Shown: piece by piece, positions 7,907 through 62,731 of the stretch | How the letters are laid out: the number at the start of each line of letters is the position of its first letter | Numbering within the stretch: position 1 is the first letter of the stretch | Assembly: GCA_900095095.1 (NCBI GenBank) | Contig: FMBT01000462.1 | Coordinates: 25,433 to 89,432, forward strand | DNA from: Fragilariopsis cylindrus CCMP1102 | Taxonomy: Eukaryota > Bacillariophyta > Bacillariophyceae > Bacillariales > Bacillariaceae | DNA length: 64,000 nt | Direction: 5' to 3' | Notes under the pieces: model-generated | What the model was told of the DNA's origin: nothing | What the model saw: only the letters and a program-made list of their open reading frames with translations | Databases searched by the model: none | Program-made: the position numbers and the translations under genes

Positions 7907-9371
7907 ATTATTTGTAGGGTGCTTTAATTAAACGCTGTTTCTTCGTTATTGCATTCCTTTAACTGTCTATTTTTTGTGGGAAGATACATTTTGTGAGATG
8001 AGCAGAAAAAGACACGATTGATTCGATGCATTTTCGTCGCATTGCATTGTGACGCTACTGTAGCGGTTTGGAAGATATGCTTTCGGAGGTTTCTAACGAA
8101 TTTGGCAAGGCACATACGCTTGAAAAGTGATTCACTTCTTTTGGTGGATAAGAGTTGCATCGTTATAGTAACGGCTAAGTACTAAGCAGTATTAATTAGT
8201 CGTGCATAATAATGTTTGTTATGTTGCTTGTTAACTGAGTCGGTGTGTCGTACTATTTTTAACAGCTACACTGAAGTGTGATTGAGATTTTTTTTTTAAG
8301 AAAACGACACACTTAGGTTAAAAACGTTAATGTTACCGCAGGATTATGATGATGATGACGAATGCAACAAATATCAATCAAGATCCAATATAGAGAACAA
8401 CATGGCACTGTTGTTGGTAGTGAGAGTTAAGATAATCTTATATTCATTAGCTATAGACTTCTATTCATTTATTGTTCTTACTACTATTTGAGGACGGATG
8501 ACAATATTCCTCTCTGTATAGGGCGTTTCTCTTCCTTTGGAATTTGTTTTCGACGATTCCTCACGGCCTGATTGTTCTTTTTGTTATCTGCTATCATTTC
8601 ACCATATATCTGTCCTTTTTGTTCAGCAGACGCCATAGCATCCTCGATACCGCCGATCATAGAAAAATCCTAGAATATTTACATATAATTTCCTGCCTCT
8701 CTTTCATTGTTTCGTCATTTTCTTCTGCGGTCTTACAAACACATTTATGACGCGCCTTCCAGTAGGAAAGGAGATAATTAGTTAAGTTTAAATCATTAAA
8801 GTCATGCATCCTGTGAAATGAATATTACATATGAAACGAATTCTCAATTCCTGCAGTAGTTTGACATTTCACAAATGGAACAAGATGGTAATTTTCTCTC
8901 TGATGTTTCTATTTTATCGCACCCTCGATTGGAACATCCATCGTTACCTTGCTAAATGCGTACCAAGATGAAATTGCGGCGGGCTCATTTGCTTCATACA
9001 TACATACATACATACATACATACATACATACATAGTACCTGCATACACATCATATACATATACATCTCTTTCCTATCATTTCTCTGTCCTGGTTCTCGTT
9101 CCGACAAATAATAAAATTCGAAATAATTTTCTTTGAATATTTCATTTTTACAGGACAGTACTCTGAAACACGACTGGATAGACAGAATTAGCTCTTACAA
9201 ATCGAAACATTTTGTAGCGTGCAAAATAAAAAGTATGCGATGATTCATTCAAATTTAAAGATGTATGTTGTTGTAAATTCAAAATCTCTCTCGGCATAAC
9301 GGTAGCAAACACAAATACAAACACAAACACACAACGTTACGGCTAAAGACAGCAAGAAAAGAAAGTAAGAA
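7907..9371. other. Long intergenic region with a tetranucleotide repeat
   Basis: About 1.46 kb without a supported gene. It holds only short frames (7924-8160 minus, 8544-8750 plus, 9148-9330 minus) of biased composition. A perfect (CATA) array lies at 8995-9034. The last 300 bp presumably contain the promoter of the kinase gene that follows. Confidence 0.6.
8995..9034. repeat. (CATA)10 microsatellite
   Basis: Ten uninterrupted tetranucleotide units in noncoding DNA upstream of the RIOK3-like gene. Confidence 0.95.
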
Positions 9372-12951: not shown

Positions 12952-13498
12952 ATTCTTTACTGTGTATCTTTTCTCTGTATTCGTTTTGTTTGCTTCTGTT
13001 GTCTAACGTTGTGGGAGCTACTACAGTATGCATCGCCATTGTTGCATGTTTAGTTTAGCAAAACCTGTCAACATTTCATTTTGATGATGGGTTACACGTG
13101 ACTCACATAATCTACTACGTACGTGCGTACGTACATTAAATTACATATATTAGTTCCCGTTTGCGCAATGAAATTGCGCGCGTGATGACAGCACACATAC
13201 CGTTTTCAATTATAAACAGATGGCCTTCAATATCACAGACATACTACAGGCCCACTATGGACCCTTCGCATCGATTTAATCACTTTTTTTAAATTTTAAA
13301 TAGAAATCTCTTCTTCGTCGTGTAATGACAAGAACTCGGACAGTAGATCGTAGAAGTACATGTACCTTGTCCAAAGTTCCAAGCACAACTATCGATACGA
13401 TCAGCAAAGCGAATAAATATCTCCCTTTTTGAAATTGCGTTTCTCGATTCGATTTCTTATACCGTCTAAACCTGAAAGGCAACTAACGACAACATCAC
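12952..13498. other. Divergent intergenic region with a short hairpin
   Basis: A 547-bp spacer between head-to-head genes. It contains an acgtacgt-rich stretch at about 13119-13135 and a perfect 7-bp stem with 3-nt loop at 13163-13179 (gcgcaat/attgcgc). The two short minus-strand frames at 13276-13666 look spurious. Confidence 0.6.
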
Positions 13499-16400
13499 AT
13501 GACGATGCAACAACCTCGTCAAAGAGATGGCGACGAAGCTAATCTCCCTCCTCGCGATGGTAATCATCATACTGGGCAACAACAACATCAACAACTCAAC
13601 GGATACAAAAATACTATTGGTGAAAGAATACCCCTGAATAGTAACAAAACAAACCAACAAAACCATTTCTACGGCAGCGTAGTAGACAAGGACGCAACTA
13701 TGCCAAAATCGAATCTTACTGATCGATACTTCTGCACCTCAGCTCCGCAACAAAATAATTTACAGACTCATAATAATGACGAAAAAGATGATTATATTCA
13801 TTACGCACCTCTACCACCACCACCACCACCACCACCACCATCACCACCAGACGAATCACCACCAAAACGAAGAAGAAGAAACGTATTAGTATGGAAAGAA
13901 CAAACTAAGAATATTATTGCCATTTCTACTGCAGTTGTTGCGTTAGCCACATGCATCGTAGCATTGATGACTGGTTTATCTCACCAGATAGCACAATCTC
14001 GTAGAGATTGGAAGTCAGATGATCAAGAACAAAATAGTAATATTCCATATACAACATCACCAAATTTGTTTGATGAAGTTGGACGATATATATTTCATGA
14101 TTATGACATTCAAACTACATTCGCTGATTTTTTACCCGGTCTTGCTGGTATTTACGGCAAACCATTATTTACATTTTATGTCAATCGTGGACAGGCAATT
14201 GCATCATTCGGTGTCGAATCGAAGAATACACCCATTATGGAATTTTCAACCGCCAATACTGCATATCAAAATACACCTCTTGTTGGATTTCGTACCTTCA
14301 TTCAGGGACGACGGGGTGATGGGAGTGATAGTGGCGATAGTGATGATGATACAAATAAAGCCTTTGTTGTAGAACCCTTTAGTCCGCTTACAACGAATTA
14401 TCCCGATATGAACCACCCTCCTACCAACCAACGAATACTATACAGTGGTGAAAATGAATTGCAAATTCAAGAGATCGATTATGAAAATCACTTAGAAACC
14501 AACGTAACGTATTTTGTACTACCTGAAGAAGACTTCGGAGCTTTCGTTCGTAGGACGACTATTAGCAATACTCATCCTGAAGAGTCTGTGACTATATCTT
14601 TCCTTGATGGACTGGCAAGGATGCAACCAGCCGGAGGAGCAACTGTCGGGGATTTGTTGAAAACTATGGGAAGGACACTCGAAGGGTTTATGGGTGTTTA
14701 CTTCCCATATGAGGATATCATAACAATGCCCTTTTATCGATTATCTTCGAGCCCATTGGACTCTGATTTTATCCAAACCCAAGAACGTGGTCATTACTGT
14801 GTTAGTATGAAGGACGATCCGAACGATGCTCTCCTTCCTATCGTGTACGATAGTTCTAGGGTTTTTGGTCAAGATACTACACTCCTGAGGCCCGTGGAAC
14901 TATATAGCAAATCTATAAAGGATATCGTAAATGGAGCTCAATACGGAAAAGCAAAAACATCATCGTGTTTTGCTGCGGTTGAAGATACCACTCTTGAACC
15001 AGGAGAATCTATCACTATAACAACATACTTCGGTGCAGCAGATCATATTATGGATATTCCTGTCATCGTTCGGAGACTCCGTCAGGATGGATTTGCCCTG
15101 TATAAGTTGACCAGAACCAGAGAGGTCCTTCGACAAATAACAGCAAGCGTTGAGACTACGACAGGTTCCGAAATATTTGATGCACACGTTAGTCAGATGT
15201 TCCTCGATAATAGTCTGAGAGGAGGTATTCCTATCGTCCTTGGAGATGAAGACGACAATAACGGATTATTGACGGTAGACGAAGACCCACGATTGAAGGT
15301 CTATCATGTATTTTCCCGCATTCATGGTGATTTGGAAAGAGATTTTAATGACTTCTTCCTTCCGTCAACTTTCTTTTCTCAAGGACCAGGAAAGTTCAGT
15401 GATGTAGCGCAGAATCGCAGAAACGATGTTGTATTTAATCCCAAAATTGGATCGTTCAACATAAGAATGTTCTTGTCGTTCATTCAAGCAGACGGATATG
15501 AGCCACATTCTGTTGAAGCGGTTGTATTCACGATTGATGATAGGAAAATTTGTGACGAGATTGCTGTCAAAGCAGTTGGTTCTGCTGATGGTCACAGAGC
15601 ACAGAGAGAAGCGCTAAGTGGGATTCTAAATGACGGACCATTCCGACCCGGTCAAGTTTTTAATCTTATGTTAGAACAAAATATATTTTTGATTGTATCT
15701 ACGCAAGAATTTATTGATATGGTAGCGGTTGCCGCAAGTTCTCATCCATTCGCCGTCTACAACGAGGGATATTGGGCGGACCACTGGACATACTACTTGG
15801 ATATAATTGAATCCTATCTTACGATTTTTCCGGATGAAGAAGAGCGTGTGATGTTTGATGTGAAATTACCTTACTTTTTTTCTCCTGCCTCTGTGCAACC
15901 TAGAAGTAAAAAATATGTGAAAAACCTGTCATATGATGGAAAACACGAACATATTCAACAGCTTGACGCAACCGTAGATGATCAGTCCAAAAGAGACCAC
16001 ATGAACAAATTTATATCGAAGAATGTTGGGTGGTACAAAATAACAGCACACTGGCAACATGACGAGTCTGGAAATGTCTTTGAAAGCACAATATATGCGA
16101 AATTGTTTCTTCTGGTAACGTTAAAATTTGCAACAAGAGATGCGATGGGGATGGGAATTGAATATGAAGGGGGAAGACCTGGTTGGGATGATGCCAACAA
16201 CGGAATACCCGGAATGCTAGGAAGTGGGATGCCAGAATCATTTGAATTGAAGGCGTTAATACAGTACCTCATACGTAGTGGAAAGAAACACTCTAGGGAC
16301 TTCTCGGTTCCCCAAGAACTTTACCATTTATTTGACTCCATAAATGGAAATCTTACTCTTTTAGAGGACTATAATGACACCTCAGAAGCCCTGAGAGACG

Positions 16401-17533
16401 TACCTTTCGATTTATTTTCTTACTGGGATAAGGTTGCAACCGCTCGAGAGACGTACCGTGAGCAAACTAAGATATTGTTTTCAGGTAGGACTACGACAAT
16501 AAATTCTGGTACGGCTGCTGAAAGTTTGGAACGATGGGAAAGGGAAATAGATAAAGGAATCGATAGGGCCATGTTGGTGGGAACAAAAGGTCGTGATGAT
16601 GATGGAACTAGCGGGATTGTGCCAACTTATTTTTCATATACGGTATCGAAATGGAATAATACGAATGAGCACGACAAATATGGCCGCCCTTTGGTTATTC
16701 CATTGAATATGACTGTTAGTCATTTCCCCCTATTTCTGGAGGGTCCCACGAGAATGATGGAGACTGTCAGTGCGATGGCTGCCAGAGATATATATCTAAA
16801 TGTTCGAAACTCTAGCTTATATGATAAGCATCTCGGCATGTATACAGTGAGTGCAAGTCTAGCTGACCAACCAATCGAAATGGGAAGATCGATGGCATTT
16901 GCTCCAGGTTGGCTAGAAAACCAATCTGTGTGGCTTCATATGTCATACAAATTTTACCTTCAACTACTTGAGCATCGTTTGTACGATGACTTTTTTGATG
17001 AAGTTCGGAATGGCGGACTTTTGCCGTTCATGGATCCCAAAATTTATGGTCGATCGCTGACGCAATGCTCTTCTTTCATTGCATCGTCAGCATTTGAGGA
17101 CCCAGATGTGAGAGGTAAAGGTTTCCTAGGACGATTGAGCGGATCTACGGCCGAGTTTCTAAGCATGTGGATATTGATGTTCATTGGTCCCGAGCCATTC
17201 TACATTAACAAGGAAACTGGGGAAATTCAAATGCAACTTTTACCGACTCTACCCTTCTGGCTTTTTCGTACACACGATGATACACTTATGGGAGGCATGA
17301 ATGGGATGGAACAGGATCATATACCTCGAATAAGCTTCAAATTGTTCTCATCGATCGATGTTCACTACCACAACAAGAATAAGACGGACATAATGGGCAT
17401 CCCGCCAAAGCGCTATAAAGTTGGACTAAGAGATGGAACCACATTTGAATATAATCAAACATTCATCCCCACAGATATGGCACAACAGATCCGGCGGGTG
17501 GTTCTAGTTGAATTTATTGAGGCCCACTTTTGA
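13499..17533 (+). CDS. Large single-pass membrane protein, COG3459-like glycoside phosphorylase/hydrolase fold
   Basis: Single-exon, 1344 residues. The N-terminal 120 residues are disordered and end in a Pro run. A basic stretch (PKRRRRN) then precedes one transmembrane helix (about 140-160, IIAISTAVVALATCIVALM), a type II topology that puts about 1180 residues in the lumen or outside. The ectodomain has motifs I associate with large bacterial COG3459/GH94-related proteins: FYVNRGQAIASFGVESK, PIMEFSTAN, LVGFRTFIQ near the start, and GRSLTQCSSFIASSAF, GRLSGSTAEFLSMW and GPEPFYIN near the end. Activity on a beta-glucan or other sugar phosphate is possible but not shown; no catalytic residue is assigned with confidence. 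Several N-x-S/T sites fit secretory-pathway glycosylation. Absence of introns over 4 kb and bacterial resemblance make horizontal acquisition plausible. The ATG at 13499 is the first in frame. Confidence 0.75.
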   Translation: MTMQQPRQRDGDEANLPPRDGNHHTGQQQHQQLNGYKNTIGERIPLNSNKTNQQNHFYGSVVDKDATMPKSNLTDRYFCTSAPQQNNLQTHNNDEKDDYIHYAPLPPPPPPPPPSPPDESPPKRRRRNVLVWKEQTKNIIAISTAVVALATCIVALMTGLSHQIAQSRRDWKSDDQEQNSNIPYTTSPNLFDEVGRYIFHDYDIQTTFADFLPGLAGIYGKPLFTFYVNRGQAIASFGVESKNTPIMEFSTANTAYQNTPLVGFRTFIQGRRGDGSDSGDSDDDTNKAFVVEPFSPLTTNYPDMNHPPTNQRILYSGENELQIQEIDYENHLETNVTYFVLPEEDFGAFVRRTTISNTHPEESVTISFLDGLARMQPAGGATVGDLLKTMGRTLEGFMGVYFPYEDIITMPFYRLSSSPLDSDFIQTQERGHYCVSMKDDPNDALLPIVYDSSRVFGQDTTLLRPVELYSKSIKDIVNGAQYGKAKTSSCFAAVEDTTLEPGESITITTYFGAADHIMDIPVIVRRLRQDGFALYKLTRTREVLRQITASVETTTGSEIFDAHVSQMFLDNSLRGGIPIVLGDEDDNNGLLTVDEDPRLKVYHVFSRIHGDLERDFNDFFLPSTFFSQGPGKFSDVAQNRRNDVVFNPKIGSFNIRMFLSFIQADGYEPHSVEAVVFTIDDRKICDEIAVKAVGSADGHRAQREALSGILNDGPFRPGQVFNLMLEQNIFLIVSTQEFIDMVAVAASSHPFAVYNEGYWADHWTYYLDIIESYLTIFPDEEERVMFDVKLPYFFSPASVQPRSKKYVKNLSYDGKHEHIQQLDATVDDQSKRDHMNKFISKNVGWYKITAHWQHDESGNVFESTIYAKLFLLVTLKFATRDAMGMGIEYEGGRPGWDDANNGIPGMLGSGMPESFELKALIQYLIRSGKKHSRDFSVPQELYHLFDSINGNLTLLEDYNDTSEALRDVPFDLFSYWDKVATARETYREQTKILFSGRTTTINSGTAAESLERWEREIDKGIDRAMLVGTKGRDDDGTSGIVPTYFSYTVSKWNNTNEHDKYGRPLVIPLNMTVSHFPLFLEGPTRMMETVSAMAARDIYLNVRNSSLYDKHLGMYTVSASLADQPIEMGRSMAFAPGWLENQSVWLHMSYKFYLQLLEHRLYDDFFDEVRNGGLLPFMDPKIYGRSLTQCSSFIASSAFEDPDVRGKGFLGRLSGSTAEFLSMWILMFIGPEPFYINKETGEIQMQLLPTLPFWLFRTHDDTLMGGMNGMEQDHIPRISFKLFSSIDVHYHNKNKTDIMGIPPKRYKVGLRDGTTFEYNQTFIPTDMAQQIRRVVLVEFIEAHF

Positions 17534-40149: not shown

Positions 40150-43100
40150 CTAGATGATGTCGCCTTCAGAACTAGATGATGTTGCGTCGTCTATTTCTAG
40201 TGGAGGCTCGTTATCATCCAATTTGTCAGATCGTTCTGAAGATGAAAAACTTTCGTTATTAATTCCATCGATGATTGGTAATTTGGATTCTCCTTCATTT
40301 TCCTTTCCAGAACCAGATGTTGCGTCTACTTCTGGAGGCTCGTTATCATCCAATTTATCGGATAGTTCTGCCGTTGATTCTTTCTCATTTTTTCTATCTT
40401 CGATTCCATCGACGCTTGGTAATTCGGATTCCCAATTCGTGATACTTGATGAATTATTCTTATTCTTCTTTACTACCTTCGATTTTTTGCCTGGACTAAA
40501 TAGACTCCAAATATTTCCAGTCACTCCAGTCTTTTCTTTATCATTAACTTTGACACTATTTAGATACTCTTTTGATGGCGAATTTTGATCCAAATCTTTT
40601 TGTACTGTGTCCGTAGCATCGATATCGTCCACCATATCGGAATCATCCTCGTTGTTTTCCTCGCCCATATGATCACTTTCGTCGTTACTTTTCATTAATG
40701 ACCTCGTTAACCCAGAAAAGACCCCTCTAATCGCCGTTTGTGCGGGATTTTTGGATCTCTCCAACTGAAACTCAAGGATCTTTAGCTTCGTATCTCTGTG
40801 CATTAATTCTTTGGATTCGGCCTCAAGCTTTTGCTCCAGTACTGCATTATGCTGCTTCAAACTCTTTATCTGTCGTTTTATTCCTGACTCATGTTCACTA
40901 GAGTCGATAGAGGTGGTATTCTTCTTCAAAGAGTCTATCTCACTTTCAAGACCGCTGATCATTAGCTCCAATTCTAAAACCCTCTCCTGTGATATCCTCC
41001 CTTCCTTTCTCGCCTTGTCTAGCTGTCTTTTACGCTCTTTCCTATCCTTGAGCAAAGTGATGTAGTCTGCTCCTTGCTCTCGAGCTCCGAGTTCCCACTT
41101 TGCATCACTGAGCTCTTCTTGTAGATCCAAAATAATACCTTGTTTTTCCTTCAGTCTTAGCGAATTGTTATACTGCAATTCTTTAAGCTTGTCTTCCAGT
41201 TCTCTATTCTCGTCATCCAATTTGCGTAATTCGACATTGACCGCTTCGATCCTTGCTCTTTCTTCCTCCTCGTCGACTCCATTTCCCATCCACTGCTTCT
41301 CAGCGAGATCCAATTTTTCTCCCCGCACAAGCTTATCAAGTTGTTGCTTTTCTTGCATTATTTTCATCATTTCGGTCTGCATGAAGGTTATCGTCTCGTC
41401 TTTTTGTTTCATCTTCTTCATCGACGTCTCTTTGTTTGTAGTAAGTTGTGTCTCTAGATCTCTTAACTCGATCTCCCGTTCCTGTAACTCTTGTTTGACT
41501 CCTTCATTTTCCGAGAAAACGACAGAAATCTCTTGTTTCTGTTTTCTAGAATGCTCTTCTTGATCAACAATTTTTTCACGTAGTTCTGCTATCTCAACCT
41601 CCAATTCCAATTCCACTTCGTCATGGGTGCTAGCAATAGAATGTAAGCTATTCGCCGTTATTTCAATGTTTCGACGAGAAAATTGACGAGTAGACGCTTC
41701 TAAGCGATGTTTTTGCTGTTTGAGTGATCGGATTTTCTGTTGTGAAGCTTTGTCATCAGAATTCCTTTGTTGCTTCAATTCGTCTAACTCCTTTTGCAAT
41801 ACTTCGTTAGATATACTCATCTCGGTCATTTCTTTACTAACACCATCCTGAATCTTTCTTAGCTCCTCATAGCGTTCTTGTAGAAATGATTGTTCCTTTG
41901 CTGTTATTTCAGCTTCCTGCTGACGAAGACGGTCGTTTTCTTTTTGAATTCTAGTATTTTCATGTTCCGTTTTCAAAATCTTCTCCTTCAATTCGTCAAT
42001 GCTTGTCCTTGTATCGCATTCTTCGTGGTCGGATTCCTCTCCACGAGAATCCGAAGCACATTCATCCTCTTTCACAATTTGAGACTCTTTCGTTAATCTA
42101 AGTTCCACTTTCTCCTGTTGAAGCAAAGTTTCTCTTTCACGGATCTGTTCTTCCATTTCAAGTAGAAATAGCTCCCTGTCGTCAATTTTATGTTCTCGTT
42201 CTTCGAGTTCAACTTCGAGTTCTGCCAATTTACTATCACGTTGTTTGGAAGAATCATCGTCAGAAATTTCTCCGTCATGGATAATGACACTAGCCACAGG
42301 TTTTTCCTCTTGTAATACTTCAATAACATCCTCCATTTCATTCATTTCTTCCTCTATCTTACAGAATTCATTTTCCGCTCTTTCTAATTTTTCTTCAAGA
42401 TATTCAACCTTATCCAGTTGTGCATCTACTGCCTCTGTTAACTTCTGAATAAGACTATCCTTCTCAATAACAGCATCTTCGTACTCCTCAATTTCCATTT
42501 TCAGTTCATACGATTCCATTTGTGCTATTTCTAATTCTCTTGTTAGTTCAAATGATGATGACGATGGTGTTTTTGGTTTTTGTTGTTGCTGCTGTTGTTG
42601 TTTCGATAAAGCAAGTTTCAGAGATTTTTCGTTTTCGTTTAATTGTCTTCGTATGGTAGCTGTTTCATCTAACAATGTAGCATTCTCTTCCTCTAAAACA
42701 TCCATACGTCGCTGATCCGTTTTCAATGAATTTCTTTCAGCATCAAGAAGTTTTTTGCTATTCGCAGATTTCTTCGTCGATCGTTGCTTCGAACGAGTTG
42801 AGCGTGATGATTGAGTGGTATCAACACTAATATCATCATCGTCGGTACTACTAATGTCAGACTTTTTCTTCTTCTTTTTCTTCTTTGATGATTTCTTTCC
42901 TTTTTTTGTAGCTTCACTTCGTACCGACATATTATCGTCATCACTGTCGTGCCCCATAGTGTTGCTACTATCGTTATTCATTATTGCTGTTGTTGTTGCT
43001 AACACTGATTTTTCTTCCTTCTTTTTCTTGACGCTACTTCTTGCGCTCCTCACCGACGACGATGACGCATGCCTTGTTAAATTAGTTTTCTTTCTGTTGC

Positions 43101-43323
43101 CACTGCTCTTTATCGACGACGATGACGGCTGCCGTGTCAAATTAGTTTTCTTTTTCCCACTGCTGCTCCTTATCGACGATGTACTTTCATCAAAGTTCAA
43201 GACGCTGTTGTTGTTGTTGTCCACATTATGAACGTGAACATCACCTACTGGCGGCTGCTGCTGACGATCTATTGACGTGCTTCTGCTAGCCTTCTTGATC
43301 ACCCTTACTTTGCTGCTTCTCAT
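40150..43323 (-). CDS. Long coiled-coil protein
   Basis: Single-exon, 1057 residues. Residues about 190-870 are nearly continuous heptad-type coiled coil (Glu/Leu/Lys/Gln-rich, for example LEVELEEREHKIDDRELFLL and ELVQEEL-type heptads) with no ATPase or motor domain. The N-terminal 190 residues are basic and Ser-rich and contain an imperfect tandem repeat (KKTNLTRQPSSSSIKS / KKTNLTRHASSSSVRS), followed by a poly-Lys stretch. The acidic tail has a second repeat (SDKLDDNEPP) twice. Such proteins act as structural or tethering rods (cytoskeleton, Golgi, centrosome-like); the exact role cannot be assigned. No membrane segment is seen. Confidence 0.85.
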   Translation of the reverse strand: MRSSKVRVIKKASRSTSIDRQQQPPVGDVHVHNVDNNNNSVLNFDESTSSIRSSSGKKKTNLTRQPSSSSIKSSGNRKKTNLTRHASSSSVRSARSSVKKKKEEKSVLATTTAIMNNDSSNTMGHDSDDDNMSVRSEATKKGKKSSKKKKKKKKSDISSTDDDDISVDTTQSSRSTRSKQRSTKKSANSKKLLDAERNSLKTDQRRMDVLEEENATLLDETATIRRQLNENEKSLKLALSKQQQQQQQKPKTPSSSSFELTRELEIAQMESYELKMEIEEYEDAVIEKDSLIQKLTEAVDAQLDKVEYLEEKLERAENEFCKIEEEMNEMEDVIEVLQEEKPVASVIIHDGEISDDDSSKQRDSKLAELEVELEEREHKIDDRELFLLEMEEQIRERETLLQQEKVELRLTKESQIVKEDECASDSRGEESDHEECDTRTSIDELKEKILKTEHENTRIQKENDRLRQQEAEITAKEQSFLQERYEELRKIQDGVSKEMTEMSISNEVLQKELDELKQQRNSDDKASQQKIRSLKQQKHRLEASTRQFSRRNIEITANSLHSIASTHDEVELELEVEIAELREKIVDQEEHSRKQKQEISVVFSENEGVKQELQEREIELRDLETQLTTNKETSMKKMKQKDETITFMQTEMMKIMQEKQQLDKLVRGEKLDLAEKQWMGNGVDEEEERARIEAVNVELRKLDDENRELEDKLKELQYNNSLRLKEKQGIILDLQEELSDAKWELGAREQGADYITLLKDRKERKRQLDKARKEGRISQERVLELELMISGLESEIDSLKKNTTSIDSSEHESGIKRQIKSLKQHNAVLEQKLEAESKELMHRDTKLKILEFQLERSKNPAQTAIRGVFSGLTRSLMKSNDESDHMGEENNEDDSDMVDDIDATDTVQKDLDQNSPSKEYLNSVKVNDKEKTGVTGNIWSLFSPGKKSKVVKKNKNNSSSITNWESELPSVDGIEDRKNEKESTAELSDKLDDNEPPEVDATSGSGKENEGESKLPIIDGINNESFSSSERSDKLDDNEPPLEIDDATSSSSEGDII

Positions 43324-44350
43324 TATAATATTGAAATTTGGAGAATTATTGGAGGAAAGAAGAAATGAATTTTACGACAATTTGTCGTCGTCTTCTTCTC
43401 GTTATTGTCGTTGCTGTCGTCGCTGTCGTTTCTGTACAATTGCATATGAAGAGACACCGGTTGATCGATGATGCATGAGTTCGCTTACAACGTCGTAGTA
43501 CCGGTAATAGTCTTGGCGTTTCAAACGAAAAAAATCATGAAAACTCAGAAAATCAGAACTATGAAGTATTTTATTAAAGCACAAAAAATGACTAAATTTC
43601 CACGATACAGCCTAATTTATGTCCGTCAAAATATATGCCCCGCCTCAATTTTATGTCTTGATCCAAAAAAAAGGATTAGTAATAACGCATCATGCCTTCG
43701 TCGCGCCAAAGTATTGTTAGTATTGTATTACGGTAGTCTTATTATGTCATGTTCGTGTATTACTGTGTATTAGATTTAGATTTTAACATCAAACATAATA
43801 ATGCATTCACAGTGAGATTATTCCACAGCAATTTTTTTACAAAATAAGTTAAGGGGAGCTTTCGTCTCTCTACTATCCATCAAGAATTCAAATTTAACCA
43901 GCAGCAGCAGCGTGCCAGATACAATATTGCATTTTTGTAATAAAAGGTCAATTTGTTTTTTAAGAGATAGTCTAGTTTATTTTAGACAGGGGGGGGGGGG
44001 GGGAGCAAATATATCTCACCTTCTTTGGGCATGCTGAATGGGGTGTATTTTTATAGATTTTTACCAAATAACTTGTAGTAGGAGGTATCTCACGAGAATC
44101 GCAATTATTGGTATGGTGTGTGGGAACTACTGTATTTGAAAAGTGTCTGAAATCCCTCAAAGGGTGCTTAAATACAATTGTAATGATTTTAATGCATTAT
44201 TATAACTTGTTTATTACTGTAAATTGATTGATTATATCTTCAATTCGATTAGGATGGGATATTTAAAGATCAATTTGAATTAGATATAGGTATAGAAATT
44301 GTTTTTCTTGATTTATACGTACACATGCAGTTTTTTTTCAAATTTTAAGT
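43324..44350. other. Intergenic region with G15 tract
   Basis: About 1 kb between two minus-strand genes. A run of 15 G at about 43989-44003 stands out. A 101-codon plus-strand frame (43468-43773) has no features and is not reported as a gene. Confidence 0.65.
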
Positions 44351-49778: not shown

Positions 49779-52700
49779 TTATTTTCGTTTTGCACTTGAA
49801 TGCCCGCTATTCATACTTTCACTTCGGCGATCACGAATCAACTTTCTTATCTCGTCCGATTCTACTGACATGGCGCGTTCAAATGATTCAGTACCGGTAG
49901 ATGGCTGTTCATTGCTCATCAGGCCCTGTATTATTGATGCATCATCCGAAGACTTGCGTATAGTCAAGTCAACAGGAAGAGCAGGATTTACATATCGGAT
50001 ATCGAGCTGCTTGCTCAATTCATGACAAAAGTATTTGACCTGGCTACGACTTTCAAAAATGGAACCTACTGCCTGCCAGTTATTTACATGTTGCAGAACA
50101 GCCAAGTACTCGACGTAACCAAGATTGGCTTGAATGTGACTATTCGAAATCCTGATTAATTTCACCCATTCCCTCGGTCTTGCGTCCAAGTATAAAATAA
50201 GAGCTTCTCGGAACAGTTCCAACTTCTCGGAGCTAGTATCGATACCAAATTTGAGAGTGACGTACAGGCATGCAGGTTGGGAACGTGCACCATTCATCAC
50301 ACGCGAGTTAGCAATTGATCCATTAGATAAAGTTGCAACTTCATTTGTATATATGTATATCACAGTGGTCGTAAAAAGGGTTATGTCGAGAACAACCCAA
50401 TTTGTAGAACCATCTATATGTGGTTCTTCGTCGATCGGCTGAATCACAATACGATCCTGAAAGTCATAAAAAGAGACAGGCAGATAGATGGACAAAGCAA
50501 TGGTATCATTAGCACATTAGCGTACTGGTGGAGAATAAAAAATGCCAATATTGCTTATCTTAGATCAAAAAACTCACCCCAATATCATACGGCCGTCTGT
50601 AGAGAATGAACATCAGACCTTCTACGTACTTGGAACTGGCTGTTGAGATCATAAAGCTGAAGGCTAATACAATGGATGAGAGACTTAGGAAAATAGATAC
50701 TGGATCTAATCTGAATACATACAGAATGATAACTGCGATAAAGATATAAAAAAGGATATTGAAGACTCTTTCGAAAGTTTTGTCAATCTTTTGTGAATTC
50801 CGCACCGATGCTCTTAGTAGCTTCATTTCCCTGTAGACAACATCCTGCAAGTAGAGAGTGAGAGGAAGAAAAAGGACAAACAATAAGACAACAGTATTAA
50901 ACTCCAAAGAATATCGGTACAAATATCGAGACATACCGTTGATTTGACAAAATCAATGAGAGAGAGGCGGCCGTTACGATTAGGTCGAAATACTTTTATA
51001 AGTAACTTCAATTTTTCTTGGTCTAAAGAGCCATCGCGTTGCAAAGCTATCAGCCCAAGAGTGTTAAAATGAAAGTATGTTTCCGGTGACTTGTCCAACA
51101 GACGTAGATATATATTTTGAGACGACTCGATGCAGTTATCACGCGTATCGGTGTTCCCAAAAGCAAATGAAAATGGAAAAGCAGAATCAAGCTTAGATAA
51201 GGAATTTTTGAACTGAAGAATCGCTCCAATACTAACGTGATCGGTCAATATCTTATCATTCCCGGGTTCTTCCCAATCTCCAAGAAGTCGCTCAATACGA
51301 CGTTTTTGTGATTGACTAAGGAGACCCGTAAGAACCTCTTTCCCTTGTTCAGTGATAAGTGGTCTATTTTTGGAGGTGGTGTTGGTATGTGATGTGTCCA
51401 TGGTAAAAGTTCTAGTCCTCTGCTGCAATTCGTCGTTGATACCAGAATCCTCCTCATCACCGTCTAGCATTATTTGAGCGGCGTCATTGATCTCTGCAAT
51501 GCCACCCCGATTGTACATGCTACTCCGCATGTAAGAGGATTTGATCACTTCTTCGAGATCACTACTAGTATCATCCAGGTCATCGCCGTCGTTTTCCTCT
51601 AATTCGAGCTGGATAGCGAGGTTAGAAATCTCCGAGATAAGAAGAATTTTTGTCATTAGAGCGCTCAATTCTTCTGCGTAATTCAAATAGGTTTTGCGTC
51701 CTTGGTGAAAGCCAATGAGAAGACGCTTGATCGCAACTACACCCGATACTGCCATAGCAACCAACTGCACCTTTAGATTTATGCCACTTGATAAGATTGA
51801 TCCACTGGAATTACATTCATTAAATAAGCCGACATAATCTTGCCAATATCCCCAATGACTGACATATCGCGATTGACCGTATAGTAGACCGATGTTACAG
51901 GCGGACCAGAAGAACAAAATTGCAGGCCATCCCTATAGATAAAATCGAGTACAATTAGATATTTTATAATTTAATCATTGGATATGTGATGCAGGAAAAT
52001 AGAGTATTTTTTCGGAACACGCGAACAAGCATATTGGGACATGCATTCTACTTACCTTGGCTTGGACTATCAATAGTGTAAAAGTTGGACCCACGCATGA
52101 AACTATCCATCGGCATTCTAAAATAATAAAATCGATTAAAAATACCTCCAATCCTCCTGCCAATGCAAGCGTTAAAGGCAAACGGACAGAAATAAGTAAG
52201 ATCCACCAAGAATAAGATGCATTTGTACTCTGTACATCCACGTTGCCAGGAATGTAAGCGCAGGTAGTGATATTCTGTGTTGGAGACAAATCAAAATCAG
52301 AGTTTATAGGAGGATTCCCAAACGCGTAGTAGAATAGCGAAGCGATACAAATACCAACAACGACTATCCACAACAAGTTCTGGAAATATTTCGTAGTAGA
52401 AGGACGACGGGTTCTGAGGAACAGTTTCGCATCGTGAACCACCCCGATCTTGTTCAAAAAGTGAAGAAAAGGTGACGGTTTCTTCTTTTCGACATTCAAA
52501 GATGACGGTAGATTTCCTCCCAGCTCAATATCGATTTCTTGGGGTTTTTTCGAATTATCTTTACTATATATGATCTCCTCTCCTTCTAGGAAACTTGTTT
52601 TCCTTGATCGATGACCTTCCGCTGAATCTGACGATGATAATGACAATCCATCTAATGAAACCTCTTCCACCATATCATCCTTATCTTTCTCGTCAATACT

Positions 52701-54344
52701 TATTGGAACGTCACTGTTAAGTGGTGTAAGTTCTTCTTCTTGGACGTATTCTTGTCTAGAATTCGTACCGACGCCTTGGAAGAGACGTGTCAAATTTTCG
52801 TTGAACAGATCCAATGATGTAGTGGTTCTATGGTGACTTTCTTGTTGCGCGCGACGTTCTTGTGTCACTGTCGGAGGTCCAGTGTGTCGAGACGAATGTT
52901 GCAACGCATCCCGTGTTGATACGTTGGTAGCATCCAATGCTTCATTTAGGGAATGTAATCTTTCTTCCATTGTCTCTTGCCGTCGATGACGATGACGGCG
53001 ATAATCATAATTGTGTTGAATATGGGGACTTCTGCTTGTTGCTGTTGCTGCTGTGTTCTGACTACTAACGTTTCCGTCACGATTACTATCAATGATACTA
53101 TTACTAATAGTACTGTTGTTACTGGTATTTTCAGATTCTGACCTAGGCCGTCGTATTTCTGCTGCAGACGAACCTTCTTTACTGCTATCATTCATTGTCT
53201 CTGCCGATGATACGTGTGTTGATACACCGGTGGTGGCGGAGGCTACCGAGCTCTTCGTTGAAAAAATTCCCTCGGCTCCCTCTGGTACGTTCGCTAGCAA
53301 CGTGTCGTTTCCAGTAGAGAAAAAATTTGCAACCGCTTCACTTTCTTCGTTTTCAGCAAGCTGTTCTTGATCTTGTCTTTCAATAGCTTTGAGAATATTA
53401 GTTTCTGCCTCCGACTCGATGGGATGTTTTTTGGTCAAATCATCTAGATTTATTGGTAGTGTAGTCGATTCACCTCTACGATGATGATTCGTACCATCAT
53501 TATTAACAGCACCATTCTTACTGTTCAGTGCCGCTTCTACCGAAGAAACAAGCTCTGCTGCAGTCTTCATTCGTTGTATCTCGTGCTCGTCGTCACCTTC
53601 ATTGTTGTCCTTTAAATAGGTCGAGATTCTTTCGGGAAATGCCGCCGGTGCAAGGTCGTCATTATATACATCCGGTATATCAATCAAAATACCACCGAGA
53701 CTAACTTTACGATGATGATGAGGTTTCTTTGGAGGACTTTTTCGTTCGGGACTTCGCTTTCTCTCAGGATTTGGTTGTTGATGTTGCTGTTTCTCATTTT
53801 GGTCCTTTGTCTTCACAACATCGATCATATCTCCCCAGCTGATAGTGCGTTTATGTTTCGGCGGCTGCGGCTGCGTCTCCTCTTTCTTCTTCTCATCACG
53901 ACCATCATTGACAACTACGTTAATTTGATCTTTGTTGTCATTAGCAGCGATGGCTGCTGTTGCTGCTGCTACTGGTCCTCCTCCTACTGCCAATGATGAT
54001 TCTGATTCTGATTCTAATTCTGTGTGGTGCGATAGCGACGGCAACAAAGATGATGGTGGACGAAACAATGCTACCAAAGGTGTCGCTGGTATGCTGTTGT
54101 TTCCGGTGTTACTGGCACCAATTGTATCAGCATCGTGTCGTGTATTTCCGACTGTAGCAGCGGCTGTAGTTGCAGTTGCAGCCGAAGTCGCCGTTAGAGA
54201 TGATGGATGAAGAGGAGGTAATAATGATGGTGATGGTGACGGTGATGGTGACGGTAATGATTCCGATGCTTCCTTAGCTGTATCATTGCTACTCGTATTC
54301 GCCGTCATGTTTCCATCATCTTCGCTTTTGCTTTCGTTATCCAT
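49779..54344 (-). CDS. MscS-family mechanosensitive channel with EF-hand-like segment, four exons
   Basis: Exons 52056-54344, 50937-51932, 50578-50844 and 49779-50456, all phase 0, 1409 residues. The first 630 residues are disordered (Ser/Pro/Asn-rich, acidic). Membrane helices follow: FQNLLWIVVVGICIASLFYY, WWILLISVRLPLTLALAGGL, then two near the exon 1-2 junction and one at QLVAMAVSGVVAIK. The pore and beta-domain signature is FIAVIILYVF, IVLAFSFMISTASSKYVEGL, RRPYDIG and GDRIVIQP across the exon 3-4 junction. Before it, FRPNRNGRLSLIDF resembles an EF-hand loop lacking the first Asp. EF-hand plus MscS is the layout of fungal Msy1/Msy2 (ER, calcium linked). The channel would open under membrane tension to release osmolytes or ions; membrane location is not decided. 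Confidence 0.88.
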
Positions 54345-55504
54345 GCGCCTTTCTGGTTTTGTTTACGTCGATGAATCTTTTGTTTTTTAATACTAGTGGT
54401 CCTTATTTTCTCCAGTAGTACTGTACTGTACACCTTTCCGCCTTCGATTCAAACCACGTTACTCCAATTCCTCTCTCATTCGTCAGCTTACAATACCTTC
54501 AAAATTGGTTTGTACTTGATGTTGCTGTGCTTTTATAATATACCATAATAAGCGATCAAATGATGATAATGACACGTCGATGATGAATGAATCAATTTTG
54601 AATATCAAACGACTCAGTTGGTGGTTCTTTTTGGGTCGGCAAGAAATGCGTGCGATGTCTCGTCTTATTCTCTCATACGTTTTTTGTGTAATAAAGTGAT
54701 GTATGTATGTAAAATACTGTTCTCTTTTGAGGTATGTTTTTAATTTTCTTCTTCTTTTAATTTGGGATCGACAATTATTAAAGCCTCTATTTTATTTATA
54801 ATAAATATATTTTTCCCTAAATCTTGATTCTCGCGTCAAATTCGCGCATACAGTACTGTGTCCAGATTCAAGTTAACAATATGCGTTATAGGACTAACAC
54901 TTAAACTTACTATGTATAGATGTAAACTCAATCATCACGTACTTTTACAGACTTACTTATGGTTCAGTAGGTAATTATTTTTGCTTTGTTTTTTTTCGGT
55001 AAAAAAGTAGAGGAAGAACAAGCCGCACCGCACGTACTCTTCGTATTTATTAGAGAGACAAGTGTACATATCCCATCAAGCCAGTCTCCACACCGGTCAC
55101 AGCACACCTCCTACCAACAAAACTAACACGCTGACATCAAAGCGAGATAATAAATACACTACTGTAGTGTCGAACAGAATAGAATTCTATTCCTTTCCTC
55201 CCTCAATAGGTCGACAACGAAACTCGATACAAACCCTGCCTGTGCACTTTACCGTAAACTTGTATCTTTTCTCCCATTAAACCTACCTTCCCAAAAGGAC
55301 ATGGAAAGGTCTGAATATTACCTTCTATCTTCACGTATTGTTGGAATATTTTAGATAGAGACTGGTGACAAAAACCCACGGACTGTACTGCTATTTAAAA
55401 AGTACCTGTTCTTGTTTGTGTGTGTTTTCTTTTTGTCTTAAAAAGAAAGGTAGGTTCCGCCGTTTATACGGGATAAACCAACAACAACAAATTAAAAAGC
55501 AAAG
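54345..55504. other. Long intergenic region, no supported gene
   Basis: 1.16 kb between divergent genes. A 10-bp inverted pair aacctacctt (55279) / aaggtaggtt (55447) is present but may be chance. The short plus-strand frame at 55062-55280 has no features. Confidence 0.6.
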
Positions 55505-58500
55505 ATGATGCAAGCGGCGCAATTAGCGGCGGAAGCGGCAATGCGAGAGGCTACCGCAAGAGACAGAGAAGCTGCGCAGAGGAATAATGGCGGTGGAAAT
55601 GGAAATGGAAATAATGATAATGACGATGATAATGGAGATTTACCGAATATGATGGATATGATGAATGATTCTAATTCTTCCTTCATGACAGATTCATCGG
55701 AACAGATGATGGGACAGATGGGATTATTACGTGCCCTTCAAAATGATACAGTGTTTGACAACGGGGATGGCGGTGGACAACAACAGCAACACCATCAACA
55801 ACAACAGCGACGACAAGCACAGCATCGTGGAAGTGGAGGAGGAAGCGGTGGACAACAACAAGATAATACTAACAATAACAGTAATAGTAACAACAATAAT
55901 AATATGCTATTACAAGAAATGAGTATGATGGGTGTCGATCCGAATGATCCTGACAGTGTACAAATGTTTTTACAACTGCTACAACAAAGAGAACAACAAG
56001 AACGTCAACAAGCGGGAATGAATGCACGTCCCGAAGAACATTATATGACAATAGCACAAAATGGTATGTAACAGAATATAAATACGTGCGCTTTATTATC
56101 ACTAAGAGCTGGTACAGCAATACAACACGTACCAAAGGCAGCAACAAACAAATTACTCAAAAACAATCGAATCGAATTCATATATACAACACATACCTTG
56201 TACCTCATCTTTTATTTTCTCTCTTCCTCAATCTCTCTCTCTCTTAACTTTCATGATGAATAAATTAAAAGGCATGATATTGGAAGCAACAAAAACTGTC
56301 ACGGGATTTCCCCCGGATTCTCTCCTAATGACATCAGCGTAAGTTTAAAAATAAAATTAAATAAAGGATCGAGTCTGTAACTATTGACTCAACTATTGAC
56401 TTATATGGGCTCTCACATCTCTTGTCATCACACACCACATTTATTTATCAAACTCAATATCGATTAATACAATAGTTACGAGGATATATACGAGGATGAC
56501 CTACCCGGTTTGTTAGCAATCAAGACTCACTTTTGGGATAAGGGTAATCCTGACGTAGAGGCATATATTCGACGGCGTTCCGTAGAAGGAGATTGGATAT
56601 TCCTCGTTACGAAGGCGGTATCGTACGTAGAACAGCCCATACCGGGTATTATTCTAGTAGAACGGCGTGTTGCCACAGCCTCAGCGCAACGTAGTGAGTA
56701 TGAACACTATTACAATGATAATCACGATGATGATGATGATGACGACGACGATAATAATAATAGGAATGCTGAGGCTCTCATGAAAGCAAGGTATTTTAAT
56801 TTAGTCACTAGGATATGTGCCATTCTCGTCCAGTCCGTAGAGACAGCACAAGAAATGGAGTCCGCGTCAAAACTCAGTTCAAATAATAACAATAATAATA
56901 ATAACCAGCAAGGGGGAATACAACCGAACGACAACAACAACAACATACAAAAAGATGATGATTCCAACCAAATGGAAAAAGATGCGGCGGCATATCAAGC
57001 TATGCTATTACAACAGCAACAACAACAAAATTCGACTAATAAGAATAATAGCGGCGGTTTATCAGATGATCCTACGATGAGAAATGACCCGTTAGGGCTG
57101 ATCATGAAAGTGGCGGCGGCGGGTGGGACTTCCAGTAAGAGTCAAAACCAAGCGGCAGCAAAATTGGAGCAAGAGATTATGGAGCGAGTGGGTGGTGCAA
57201 CAAAAAAGGAAAGTTTCGATCCGTTCTCGGTATTGGAAGATGTTAGAGAAGGTGTCAGATTGGATCTTGGGATGATTCGATTAGGTTATGGTGAGATTCG
57301 GCTGATGAAGATGATGTTGACGGGAGAATTAACTATAGAGGAATTGTGTCAACTAGTATTCCGTGCTCTCAGTTGTGGTGTCGGTCTCGATGTTACGATC
57401 GATCAATTCGTTATAGAAAGGAAACAAAATAATCCAACAGGATATGCGATAAGATCGGTCACACCGTGTATATCTGTAGTCAATCTATCCTATACATATA
57501 TGGGAAACTTCGCCGTAGATTTATTCTGTGAAGTTATCGATATGGATCGCTCACCTTTGAGGACAATCGATGTTAGCTTTTGTGGCTTGGAGGATCGAGG
57601 GATTCTAGCACTATCTAAGGCACTAACGAGACGAAAAATAAAAGGAATAGCACCATTGCGTGGAATTATTTTATCAGGAAATTATATATCAAAACGAGTA
57701 GCAGCAGATTTGGGACGGGCTCTATCGCCGCATCAGAATAAAGAAGAATCGTCATCGTTTCCGGATAGTGCAGATCAAACCAATGGAATTCGTAGTGATA
57801 TGTTTGGCAACTTTAAGTCGGATGAAGGCAATGAGTGTGAAAAATATTTCAACAAAGACTTTGGCCTGCAAGTACTACATCTGGGTTTGGCACTGAATGA
57901 TTCCGAAGCCGTTAGTCAACTACTCTATGGGCTAGGACCATTATGTCCTGTCAAGGAACTTAGTCTTACCTCGAACCACATAGGTCTCGAAGGCGTGGAG
58001 TGTATCGTAGATTTTCTAGAAGGCAAAAAAATTATTCAAATTCGGAAAGATAACAAAACCAAGCCAGTTATGCCATACTTGGACCGCTTAGACTTTTCCA
58101 ATAATAAAATTGGAAATGAAGGTCTGAAGAAGCTCACCAGAGTTTTGCAGAGACGTGGAGCGAAGCATCTAGTAGAATTGCGGCTATCAAACAACGGAAT
58201 CGCGCATAGTGGAATTGAAACGATGATGAATAAGTTATTACAGCATAATCTAGTTAGCTTGACTTTGGACAAAAATGGTATTGGAGATCAAGGGTGTCAG
58301 CTAATTGCAGCATCTCTGCTGAGCATGAAGTGTCTTGCCCGCCTGAATCTTAGCTTCAACCAGATCGGAAGTCGTGGTGTGAATAGTCTTATGCGGAGTC
58401 TTGTAGCGTGTGATTCAATAACATATCTTGGTCTTTCTGGAAACATTATGAAGATTTCTGGTGCGGTTGCTCTTGCTTTTACCCTTGCCCAACATCCCCG

Positions 58501-60124
58501 ATTAGAAGAACTCGATGTCGATAACTGTTGCCTTAGTCAAGCTGCTCAATGTCATATCATCGCTGGGATAATATCAAATAGATGGGTGCCTATGAAGAGA
58601 ATGAATGGCTTCGAAGCAGGGCCGCCAATGGTTGCACTTGGTGCATTACAAATATCGGCACAAGGCTTGAGTAACGAAGAATGTTTTCGAATAAGAAAAG
58701 ATGAGCAAATGAAAACGATACTACAGTGGATGGAGTCAAATCGTGCCAAAATGGGGAGAAGAGATCCTAATATGCCAGCTCAAGCGGACATGAACAGTCA
58801 ATATCTGACTCCAGATTTTGTCCAAAGCATGAACGATGTAGAAGGCATTCCATCACAAAATGCTTACCTTCGTTTACTCAGTTGGCTCAGTCGAATTCCT
58901 TTCGATGAAGATGAACTGATATCACTCAGAAAATACTTTTATGACTCCGACGGTTTATCCGAAGATCGCGGGAGTGATGGTTATGTCAATTTGAAGCTAC
59001 GAGGTGACTTACTTGCAGCCCTAGAAAGTGATGTAGCTGATGAAATTAGAGGCGAAACTCCGATGTTGAAAGAGTACGATGGCTCGGTCGGCTTCGATAT
59101 CGACCGAATCGCTCCGGTAGAAACTGTGTCGGAGTGGGGATACATGAAAGGAGAAAAGTTTGATAAAGCAGCACGTGTGTTAGCTTCAGAATTAGAGAAA
59201 GAACAAGCGCTGGATGACGTAAAAAATCACTTCAATATAGATGCAATGGAGGACAATCGCTTTTCGAGCGATGAGGACTTTAACGATAACGGGATCAACC
59301 GAAAACGAAGAATATTCTCTTCGGCAGAATTCCGAGATGGGAACTCCCGAGGGAGTCCACCAAGTCCATCGTCTACCTCCTCAACAGAAAAACTGCATAG
59401 CTTACAAAGTATTGTAAATAGCGGCTCTGAGCGAAGCTCGATGAGTCAAGGCGAAAGAGAGATAAAGCGTGTTCCTCTGAAAGCGAGAATAACGATGTTC
59501 CCACAGTTCGAGATGAAATTGGAGGAGCTCAAGGCTACGGCAACAGAAATGATTGAATCAGAAGAAGATCCCGAACAACAAGAGATAATACTAACCCAGT
59601 ACGCCGAGGCTTCACTGACGATTCTTCGGCAACTCAGGTATCATTGTATGAATAACGGACTCGATGGGTGGAGGCAAGGCTCGATGAAGCGTAAGGTCTT
59701 GATTGTTGATGATAGTAACGTGACTCGAAAACTTTTATCTCGAGCCTTCGAGAGGGCTAATTTTATCGTTGATTCTGCTGAGAATGGTGCCATAGGCGTA
59801 GAGAAGCTGAAACGAGCCATATACGATATTGCTTTCATGGATATCGACATGCCAGTCATGAATGGATTCGAGGCAACGAAGAGACTCAGAGAATGGGAGG
59901 ATGCAATGCGACCGGGTGTCCGCCAACCGATTTGCGCTCTCACGGCGGCACACGTAGATGATTTCGAGCGTAGTGAGTTGATGAAATTCAAGGAGGCTGG
60001 GCTAGATGTGTTCGAGAGCAAACCGTGCAACATTCCAAGACTGTTCAAAGTCGTTGATGATGTCTCGCCCATGTTTAGTGATTTATCTATCAGCGTTATA
60101 CAACAAGAAAGGAGTCAAGCGTAA
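55505..60124 (+). CDS. LRR protein fused to a C-terminal response-regulator receiver domain
   Basis: Exons 55505-56063, 56272-56338 (67 nt) and 56476-60124, 1424 residues. Residues 1-200 are Ala/Asn/Gln-rich; 200-300 hold an unknown domain (GLLAIKTHFWDKGNPDVEAY, EGDWIFLVTKAV). Leucine-rich repeats of the RNI type occupy about 550-920: LRTIDVSFCGLEDRGILALS, LDRLDFSNNKIGNEGLKKLT, LVELRLSNNGIAHSGIETMM, LARLNLSFNQIGSRGVNSLM, ITYLGLSGNIM. The C-terminal 130 residues form a receiver domain: VLIVDDSNVTRKLL (about 1280), phosphoacceptor in FMDIDMPVMNG (D1331), ALTAA and ESKP, so all key residues are present. Receiver domains take phosphate from histidine kinases; no kinase lies in this window. No membrane segment or signal peptide is seen, so a cytosolic role is likely. 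Confidence 0.88.
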
Positions 60125-60703: not shown

Positions 60704-62731
60704 TTAATCGATTTCTTCAATGGTTGTCCACCGCTGGATCGTCACCAGCAGGGGCACCTGAGGCTCCACCTCCAGGCATACCACCCATATCAGGCATACC
60801 GGCAGGCATACCTCCGGCTGCGCCGCCTCCCATCTTTTGAAGGATTGGCATAGCAATTCCTTCGAGTTCCTTTTGCTTTTCTTCGTATTCTTCCTTTTCG
60901 GCAGCAGGGTTGGCATCTAACCAACTAATAGTTTCATCAATCTTGGATTCGACGGCAGTCTTGTCCGCAGGGTCCATCTTGGCTTGGACTTCATCGCCAC
61001 TGAGGGATCCCTTAAGGGAGTAACAGTAGTTTTCAAGACCGTTCTTGGATTCAATACGGTTACGGTTGGCATCATCTTCGGCCTTGTAGGTTTCGGCTTC
61101 GGAAACCATACGTTCGATTTCATCTTGTGATAGACGACCCTTGTCGTTGGTAATAGTAATCTTTTGTTCCTTTCCGGTCGACTTTTCCAATGCACTAACG
61201 TTCAAGATACCATTGGCATCAATGTCAAAGCAAACATCAATTTGAGGTTGTCCACGAGGCATAGGAGGGATTCCATCCAAGTTGAATTTTCCGAGGATGT
61301 TGTTATCCTTGGTCATGGAACGTTCACCTTCAAAGACTTGGATCAACACACCTGGTTGGTTATCAGCGTAGGTGGAGAAGGTTTGGGTCTTCTTGGCAGG
61401 AACGGTGGTGTTTCTCTTGATTAGAGTAGTCATGACACCTCCAGCAGTTTCAAGACCGAGGGAAAGTGGGGTGACATCAAGAAGTAATAATTCGGAAAGC
61501 TTTTCGGACTTGTCGGCACCACTTAAGATAGCGGCTTGGACGGTAGCACCGAAGGCAACAGCTTCATCAGGATTGATGGACTTGCACAATTCTTTGTTGT
61601 TGAAGAATTCAGAAAGCATCGATTGGACCTTAGGAATACGGGTGGATCCACCAACGAGGACAATCTCGTCAACTCCAGCCTTGGAGATCTTCGCATCTCT
61701 CAAGACCTTTTCACATGGTTCCATACATTTCTTGAAATAATCCATGTTCAAATCTTCGAATCGAGCACGGGTGATGGTAGCATTGAAATCAATACCGTCA
61801 AACAGGGAATCAATTTCAATGTGTGCTTGAGTGGAAGAGGAAAGAGTACGCTTGGCACGTTCGCAAGCAGTACGAAGACGACGAAGCGAACGGTTGTTGC
61901 TGCTCATATCCTTCTTGTGCTTTCTCTTGAAGTCGGTCAGGAAATAATCCACCATACGGTTATCGAAATCTTCTCCTCCCAAATGGGTGTCTCCAGCAGT
62001 GGCCTTGACTTCGAAGATACCTTCTTCGATGGTCAACAGAGAAACATCGAAGGTACCTCCACCCAGGTCGAAAATAAGGACATTCTTTTCATCTCCTTTT
62101 TTGTCTAAACCGTAAGCGATAGCGGCGGCGGTTGGTTCGTTAATAATACGAAGGACGTTTAATCCAGAAATGGCACCAGCATCCTTGGTGGCTTGACGTT
62201 GGGAGTCATTGAAGTAGGCAGGGACAGTGACGACAGCGTTTCTGACTTCCTTTCCTAGGTAGGCTTCGGCGATATCCTTCATCTTCATTAGGACCATCGA
62301 ACTGATTTCTTCCGACTTGAAATCTTTTTCTTCACCCTTGTATTCGACACGGATGATGGGGGTTCCTCCGGTTCCGGAGATGACCTTGAACGGCCAATGC
62401 TTCATGTCTGATTGGACCGAGGCATCCGAAAATTTACGTCCGATTAAACGCTTCGCATCAAAGACGGTATTGGTGGCGTTCATGGCAGCTTGGGACTTGG
62501 CGGCGTCACCGATCAGACGTTCCGTTTCGGTAAAGGCAACGTACGATGGTGTGGTACGGTTACCTTGGTCGTTGGCAATGATTTCGACACGGTCATTTTG
62601 CCATACCTGAAAAAGGAAAAAAGGAAAAAAGAATCATGTGAGAGAATGTAACAGGAAGATAAATAGAAATCTCTTGATGATATTGACAAATATAATTAAA
62701 TATATATAATAAACTTACACCAACACATGAA

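Follow-up and report, generated by a model that had tools for sequence, protein, structure and literature searches.

Which proteins take up the phosphoryl group at the end of a diatom phosphorelay? Diatoms possess many hybrid histidine kinases and, to our knowledge, the targets of their phosphorelays are largely open. The question is raised here by a gene in a 64,000-nucleotide stretch of the Fragilariopsis cylindrus genome (called the window), the product of which combines leucine-rich repeats (LRRs) with a response-regulator receiver.

Gene model and domains

The gene is located on the + strand, where three exons (55505-56063, 56272-56338 and 56476-60124) are joined in frame to give 1,424 codons and a stop. 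The first-pass annotation had described an RNI-type LRR array and a complete receiver situated in one open frame behind two small upstream exons. This description is borne out by coding bias and by the Pfam search that the annotation had proposed, in which both LRR_6 (E-value 3.9e-20) and Response_reg (4.5e-19) score above cut-off; the joined translation reproduces exactly its coordinates, the length of 1424 residues and the position of phosphoacceptor D1331.

Exon 1 (55505..56063), assigned by its in-frame join and coding bias, encodes an N-terminus rich in Asn, Gln and Gly (residues 1 to ~178), followed by the opening strand of a PAS-like block; a Pfam search of exon 1 gave no family above cut-off. 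Intron 1 (56064..56271; GT-AG) contains a 20-base length difference between the two copies of the gene described below, exon 2 (56272..56338) falls within the PAS-like block and intron 2 (56339..56475; GT-AG) has a low coding score. Exon 3 with the stop codon (56476..60124) makes up a 1,218-codon open frame. Both introns are predicted from the GT-AG sites, the frame, coding bias and the comparison of copies. Exon 2 has three in-frame acceptors, at 56107, 56272 (the one kept) and 56287. Acceptor 56107 is disfavored since it would turn into coding sequence the stretch where the copies differ by 20 bases in length (at 56218); acceptor 56287 may be an alternative, making the protein five residues shorter.

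A codon-usage score, trained on seven kinase and receiver frames of the same genome and on the HSP70-like frame of the window, ranked the frame of the gene first among six in 15 of the 15 tiles of exon 3, the linker between the LRRs and the receiver included. Could the two parts still be separate genes fused by a missing stop or by mis-assembly? Such an artefact is largely refuted, and we consider it very improbable, given that LRRs and receiver lie within the single 1,218-codon frame, that coding bias runs through the linker and that the same order is repeated on a second contig.

The LRR array (57467..58591, +; residues 540-914) consists of ~11 ribonuclease-inhibitor-type repeats with two longer inserts. 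LRR_6 matched exon 3 in 5 stretches, with 70.7 bits against a Pfam cut-off of 23.4. The repeats start at residues 540, 570, 603, 673, 701, 744, 774, 801, 829, 857 and 885, with spacing of mostly 27-33 residues; two intervals are wider, at 70 and 43 residues. A phmmer search of the PDB matched the array to ribonuclease inhibitor (7e-15) and DRC5 (1.6e-11); the likeness lies in the repeat type, and we know of no receiver or PAS domain in ribonuclease inhibitor and DRC5-like RNI proteins. NLRX1 and NOD-like LRRs are also among the PDB matches, at 6.9e-8 and lower in the ranking; these matches and the ribonuclease-inhibitor type of the repeats would fit an NLR/NOD-type recognition protein in which the LRRs sense a ligand and an add-on receiver relays the state. 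This role appears improbable, as Pfam searches of exons 1 and 3 detected no NACHT or other NTPase family, and axonemal and ribonuclease-inhibitor proteins match the same LRR type better.

The receiver domain (59696..60055, +; residues 1283-1402) aligns with positions 1-110 of 111 of the Response_reg profile (PF00072), scoring 69.1 bits against a cut-off of 30.2 in the Pfam search of exon 3; a search of the genome put it at the same place, and phmmer matched it to receivers in the PDB (best 2.1e-16). All five residues of receiver chemistry are present in the window copy: the acidic pair D1287-D1288 (59708..59713, +), the phosphoacceptor D1331 (59840..59842, +), placed by translation and by aligning the receiver to others from the same genome, and T1365 and K1391. 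The acidic pair and the Thr/Lys switch residues listed in the first-pass annotation are thus found in the translation. Ahead of the receiver, a helical hairpin at residues 1216-1268 (59495..59653, +) is weakly predicted by single-sequence AlphaFold, with pLDDT of ~55-65; the mean pLDDT over residues 930-1424 was 37.3. Neither HisKA/HATPase nor DNA-binding domains were detected in exons 1 and 3 by Pfam searches at E ≤ 1.

The block of residues ~179-274 (56039..56671, +) is spread over 56039-56063, 56272-56338 and 56476-56671, so that both introns cut through it. An N-terminal domain placed at about residues 200-300 had been called unknown; by statistics that are marginal it is probably a PAS domain. 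With the exons joined and low-complexity flanks trimmed, the block matched PAS_3 over ~positions 6-74 of 89 with 17.1-17.2 bits (cut-off 25.6; E-value 0.0062-0.0069), the next family being DUF6688_C (0.043-0.048); no PAS domain was seen in the block by Pfam when the flanks were kept, nor in NCBIfam. A PDB search with the block returned 16 sequences at E ≤ 10. Nine of them are PAS-bearing and each is insignificant alone (E-values 0.15-1.8); we take them to be BMAL2, BMAL1, two Cycle, two CLOCK, PER2, Spineless and one bacterial sensory box kinase. Every PAS entry is outscored by haloalkane dehalogenases, four of which were matched over 49 residues at 0.004 (versus 0.15 for the best PAS entry) and a fifth at 1.3. 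Ten shuffles of the block yielded 0 PAS hits at E ≤ 10, while two of the ten yielded other families (0.13 and 0.19). Our own PAS profile, built from 27 bacterial PAS_3 domains, gave the stretch 5.9 bits (E-value 1.2), a score exceeded by 2 of 2000 shuffles, and the segments 161-263 and 181-283 were the two best of the whole protein.

The similarity to bHLH-PAS and clock proteins (BMAL2, BMAL1, Cycle, CLOCK, PER2, Spineless) is weak and strongest around G-F/Y-x-P-x-x-L-L-x-T-S-x-Y-E, as for BMAL2; unlike in these proteins, a bHLH domain was not found in exon 1 of the diatom gene by Pfam. The PAS match runs consistently through all three exons and so lends support to their joins. We hold the assignment of the block to PAS to be very likely and the domain order PAS-LRR-receiver to be likely. 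The architecture is probably more elaborate than first described, with one diatom gene joining a bacterial-type phosphorylation switch, LRRs as a scaffold for binding, and what is probably a sensor-like PAS domain.

Comparison of two copies

Many loci of the assembly occur in two copies, taken here to be haplotypes. The second copy of the gene was found at C32:26247-29891. Of the 1,424 codons, 1,420 were compared; they carry 39 synonymous changes and 11 that are non-synonymous, and the resulting dN/dS of 0.08 is a sign of strong purifying selection on the whole frame. All 11 non-synonymous changes are located between residues 293 and 655, with none beyond 655. Exon 1 (185 codons) has 4 synonymous and 0 non-synonymous changes. 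The copies also differ in length, by 20 bases in intron 1 and by 3 bases in exon 3.

Three one-base deletions, all within a stretch of ~150 bases where the receiver begins, leave the receiver of the second copy frame-broken as assembled; if the break is real, one allele is without a receiver. The deletions would be expected of a vestigial receiver carried on an LRR scaffold and lost already in one allele, an explanation to which we give little credence. The window copy keeps all five chemistry residues, and the 148 receiver codons compared contain 0 non-synonymous changes and only 1 synonymous change. Moreover, one-base differences are seen in two of six other haplotype pairs (C384 versus C409 in both cases), and for this reason the frame breaks are likely to be assembly errors rather than decay.

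Receivers, kinases and relatives

Searching the genome for Response_reg gave 32 matches, grouped into 17 loci according to whether their scores, frame lengths and translations agreed. Fourteen of the 17 loci have a histidine-kinase ATPase domain and are hybrid histidine kinases; 13 of the 14 were recognized by Pfam (L038 by a partial match below cut-off), and L016/L017 by eye from upstream frames. Two other loci have a GerE domain, above cut-off in L005 and below it in L041. Of the 17, only the LRR-receiver gene was found to lack both a kinase and a DNA-binding domain. The search for HPt detected one gene, at two positions (28.2 and 28.0 bits, cut-off 24.6) taken here to be haplotypes; it carries the H-x-x-K-G motif and reaches an E-value of 1.9e-6 once joined by eye. 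Since the searches were run exon by exon, receivers or HPt genes split by introns may be missed, and the counts of one kinase-less receiver and one HPt gene make a lower-bound census. For the silicon transporter family PF03842, the genome gave 27 matches (best 1.1e-226); one of 14 control genomes gave a match, below cut-off. We read this result as that of a diatom genome.

The C-terminal placement of the receiver had been thought unusual. The hybrid kinases of this genome place their receivers C-terminally too, which makes the position in itself unremarkable; the oddity is that no kinase stands ahead of the receiver.

The nearest receivers within the genome by BLAST score are those of L016/L017 and L012, with 31-33% identity. 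The GAF-type histidine kinases L012/L013 and L016/L017 resemble the LRR protein in this domain and differ from it in that their receiver stands behind a histidine-kinase ATPase domain, which the LRR protein lacks. A receiver tree built from 12 of the genome's own receivers (five loci, on C81, C184/C630, C61/C632, C184/C755 and C278, were left out) and from 45 bacterial sequences, out of 71 that passed the length filter, also groups the receiver of the gene with L012 and L016 (support 0.83); the grouping is weak evidence because the domain is short.

Some of the other receiver loci have particular features. L012/L013 has two receiver matches and, by eye, appears to have Asn at the site normally taken by the phospho-histidine (TSNDLMTPL), so that it is perhaps a pseudokinase; the His is kept in its relative L016/L017 (AAHDLLTPL, motif also found by eye). 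The two GerE loci, L005 (1147-2370, −) and L041 (1660-3141, −; GerE below cut-off), are nuclear genes that combine a receiver with a GerE domain of the LuxR type in a bacterial-style layout. L039 (3-4316, +; G000:C184, with a counterpart on C630) is a hybrid histidine kinase with six tandem PAS domains, in alternating near-identical pairs, followed by HisKA, HATPase and a receiver.

A search of the own genome for relatives of the protein gave 16 matches: the window and C32 copies over the full query, an additional C32 segment, three matches to the LRRs only and ten to the receiver only. No full-architecture relative was found in the collection of viral contigs. In bacterial and archaeal genomes, scanned with the 1,215-residue product of exon 3, there were 234 relatives; the best 80 of the 234 all match query residues 1002-1215, i.e. 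the receiver end, and a tblastn search of these best 80 loci with the LRR part found nothing at E ≤ 1.

The first-pass annotation knew of no standard eukaryotic family with this order. The combination as such has a precedent: according to the accessible part of PMC4758236, response regulators with LRRs are on record outside diatoms, namely two in Physarum polycephalum. LRRs together with a receiver are therefore known in principle. As far as that part of the source describes them, the Physarum proteins are like the diatom protein in having a receiver and LRRs without a kinase, in a eukaryote rich in hybrid histidine kinases; they differ in coming from an amoebozoan, and the comparison is by description alone, the text at hand giving no LRR type, domain order, PAS domain or sequences (PMC4758236). 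The likeness would at most be one of working alike. Our literature search, covering titles and abstract openings, found no report of a diatom protein with both LRRs and a receiver, and the accessible parts of PMC4758236, PMC9054022, PMC6944256, PMC4558063, PMC9928731 and PMC3019232 contain none.

A possible output of the phosphorelay

We propose, with a probability of about one half, that the PAS-LRR-receiver protein is a kinase-less response regulator that ends a diatom multistep His-Asp phosphorelay, and that phosphorylation of its receiver switches the LRR scaffold. The suggestion in the first-pass annotation that LRR-mediated binding might be the regulated output fits this proposal. The phosphoryl group would pass from hybrid histidine kinases through an HPt protein, the presumed donor, to D1331. 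Phosphorylation of D1331 would alter the T1365/K1391 face of the receiver; with this face changed, the LRR solenoid may bind differently, or the protein may pair via the receiver, the helical hairpin or the PAS domain. The putative PAS domain might act as a second sensor or, by analogy with bHLH-PAS proteins, as a protein-docking surface.

This proposal is based on the receiver and LRRs being intact in one frame under strong purifying selection, and on a genome in which 14 hybrid kinases are found alongside an HPt gene and the LRR-receiver gene has neither kinase nor GerE domain. It also draws on the usual eukaryotic scheme, in the part of PMC6944256 accessible to us, of a hybrid kinase, an HPt protein and a response regulator in succession, and on the LRR regulators of Physarum (PMC4758236, likewise in part). 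Counting against it are the receiver of the second copy, frame-broken as assembled, and the PAS match, which is below the Pfam cut-off. As the other 16 of the 17 receiver loci comprise 14 kinases and two apparently DNA-binding proteins, the LRR-receiver protein stands out as the candidate non-transcriptional output.

The main rival to this proposal is that the protein tunes the relay rather than reading it: the receiver would dock on hybrid kinases or HPt and drain or buffer phosphate as an adaptor or phosphate sink, with the LRRs and PAS domain binding constitutively. Such a role would agree with the Pfam searches, which found no enzymatic or DNA-binding output, and with the 31-33% identity to the receivers of kinases L016/L017 and L012. 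We nevertheless regard it as rather unlikely, for the protein retains the full T1365/K1391 switch set, of which a pure phosphate sink has less need.

The proposal of a switched LRR scaffold could be extended, though only tentatively, to a distinct eukaryotic class of response regulators that would form the dedicated non-transcriptional output of a many-kinase His-Asp phosphorelay in a diatom; an ARNT/BMAL-like PAS domain would act jointly with phosphorylation of the receiver to gate an LRR scaffold. The gene makes the question of relay targets concrete, with one HPt gene found, one kinase-less receiver and one scaffold whose partners may depend on D1331. If orthologues span the diatoms, they would show how a bacterial switch is wired to a eukaryotic binding scaffold.

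Among other frames of the window, those at 13487-17533 (+), 40150-43371 (−), 50823-51932 (−) and 51975-54362 (−), of 1,348, 1,073, 369 and 795 codons, respectively, have no Pfam match at E ≤ 0.001. A RIO-domain kinase (2.3e-47) is encoded at 9369-12197 (+), with a long low-complexity N-terminus that includes repeats of the DQDNFGYDKNPAAYVCAEDGKQPYV type. The frame adjoining the gene at 60717-62633 (−), named HSP70-like from its sequence, differs at 0 of 1,684 bases between the copies (60717-62400), as compared with ~2-4% in the flanks of the LRR-receiver gene; gene conversion, strong constraint or a collapsed assembly could account for this identity.
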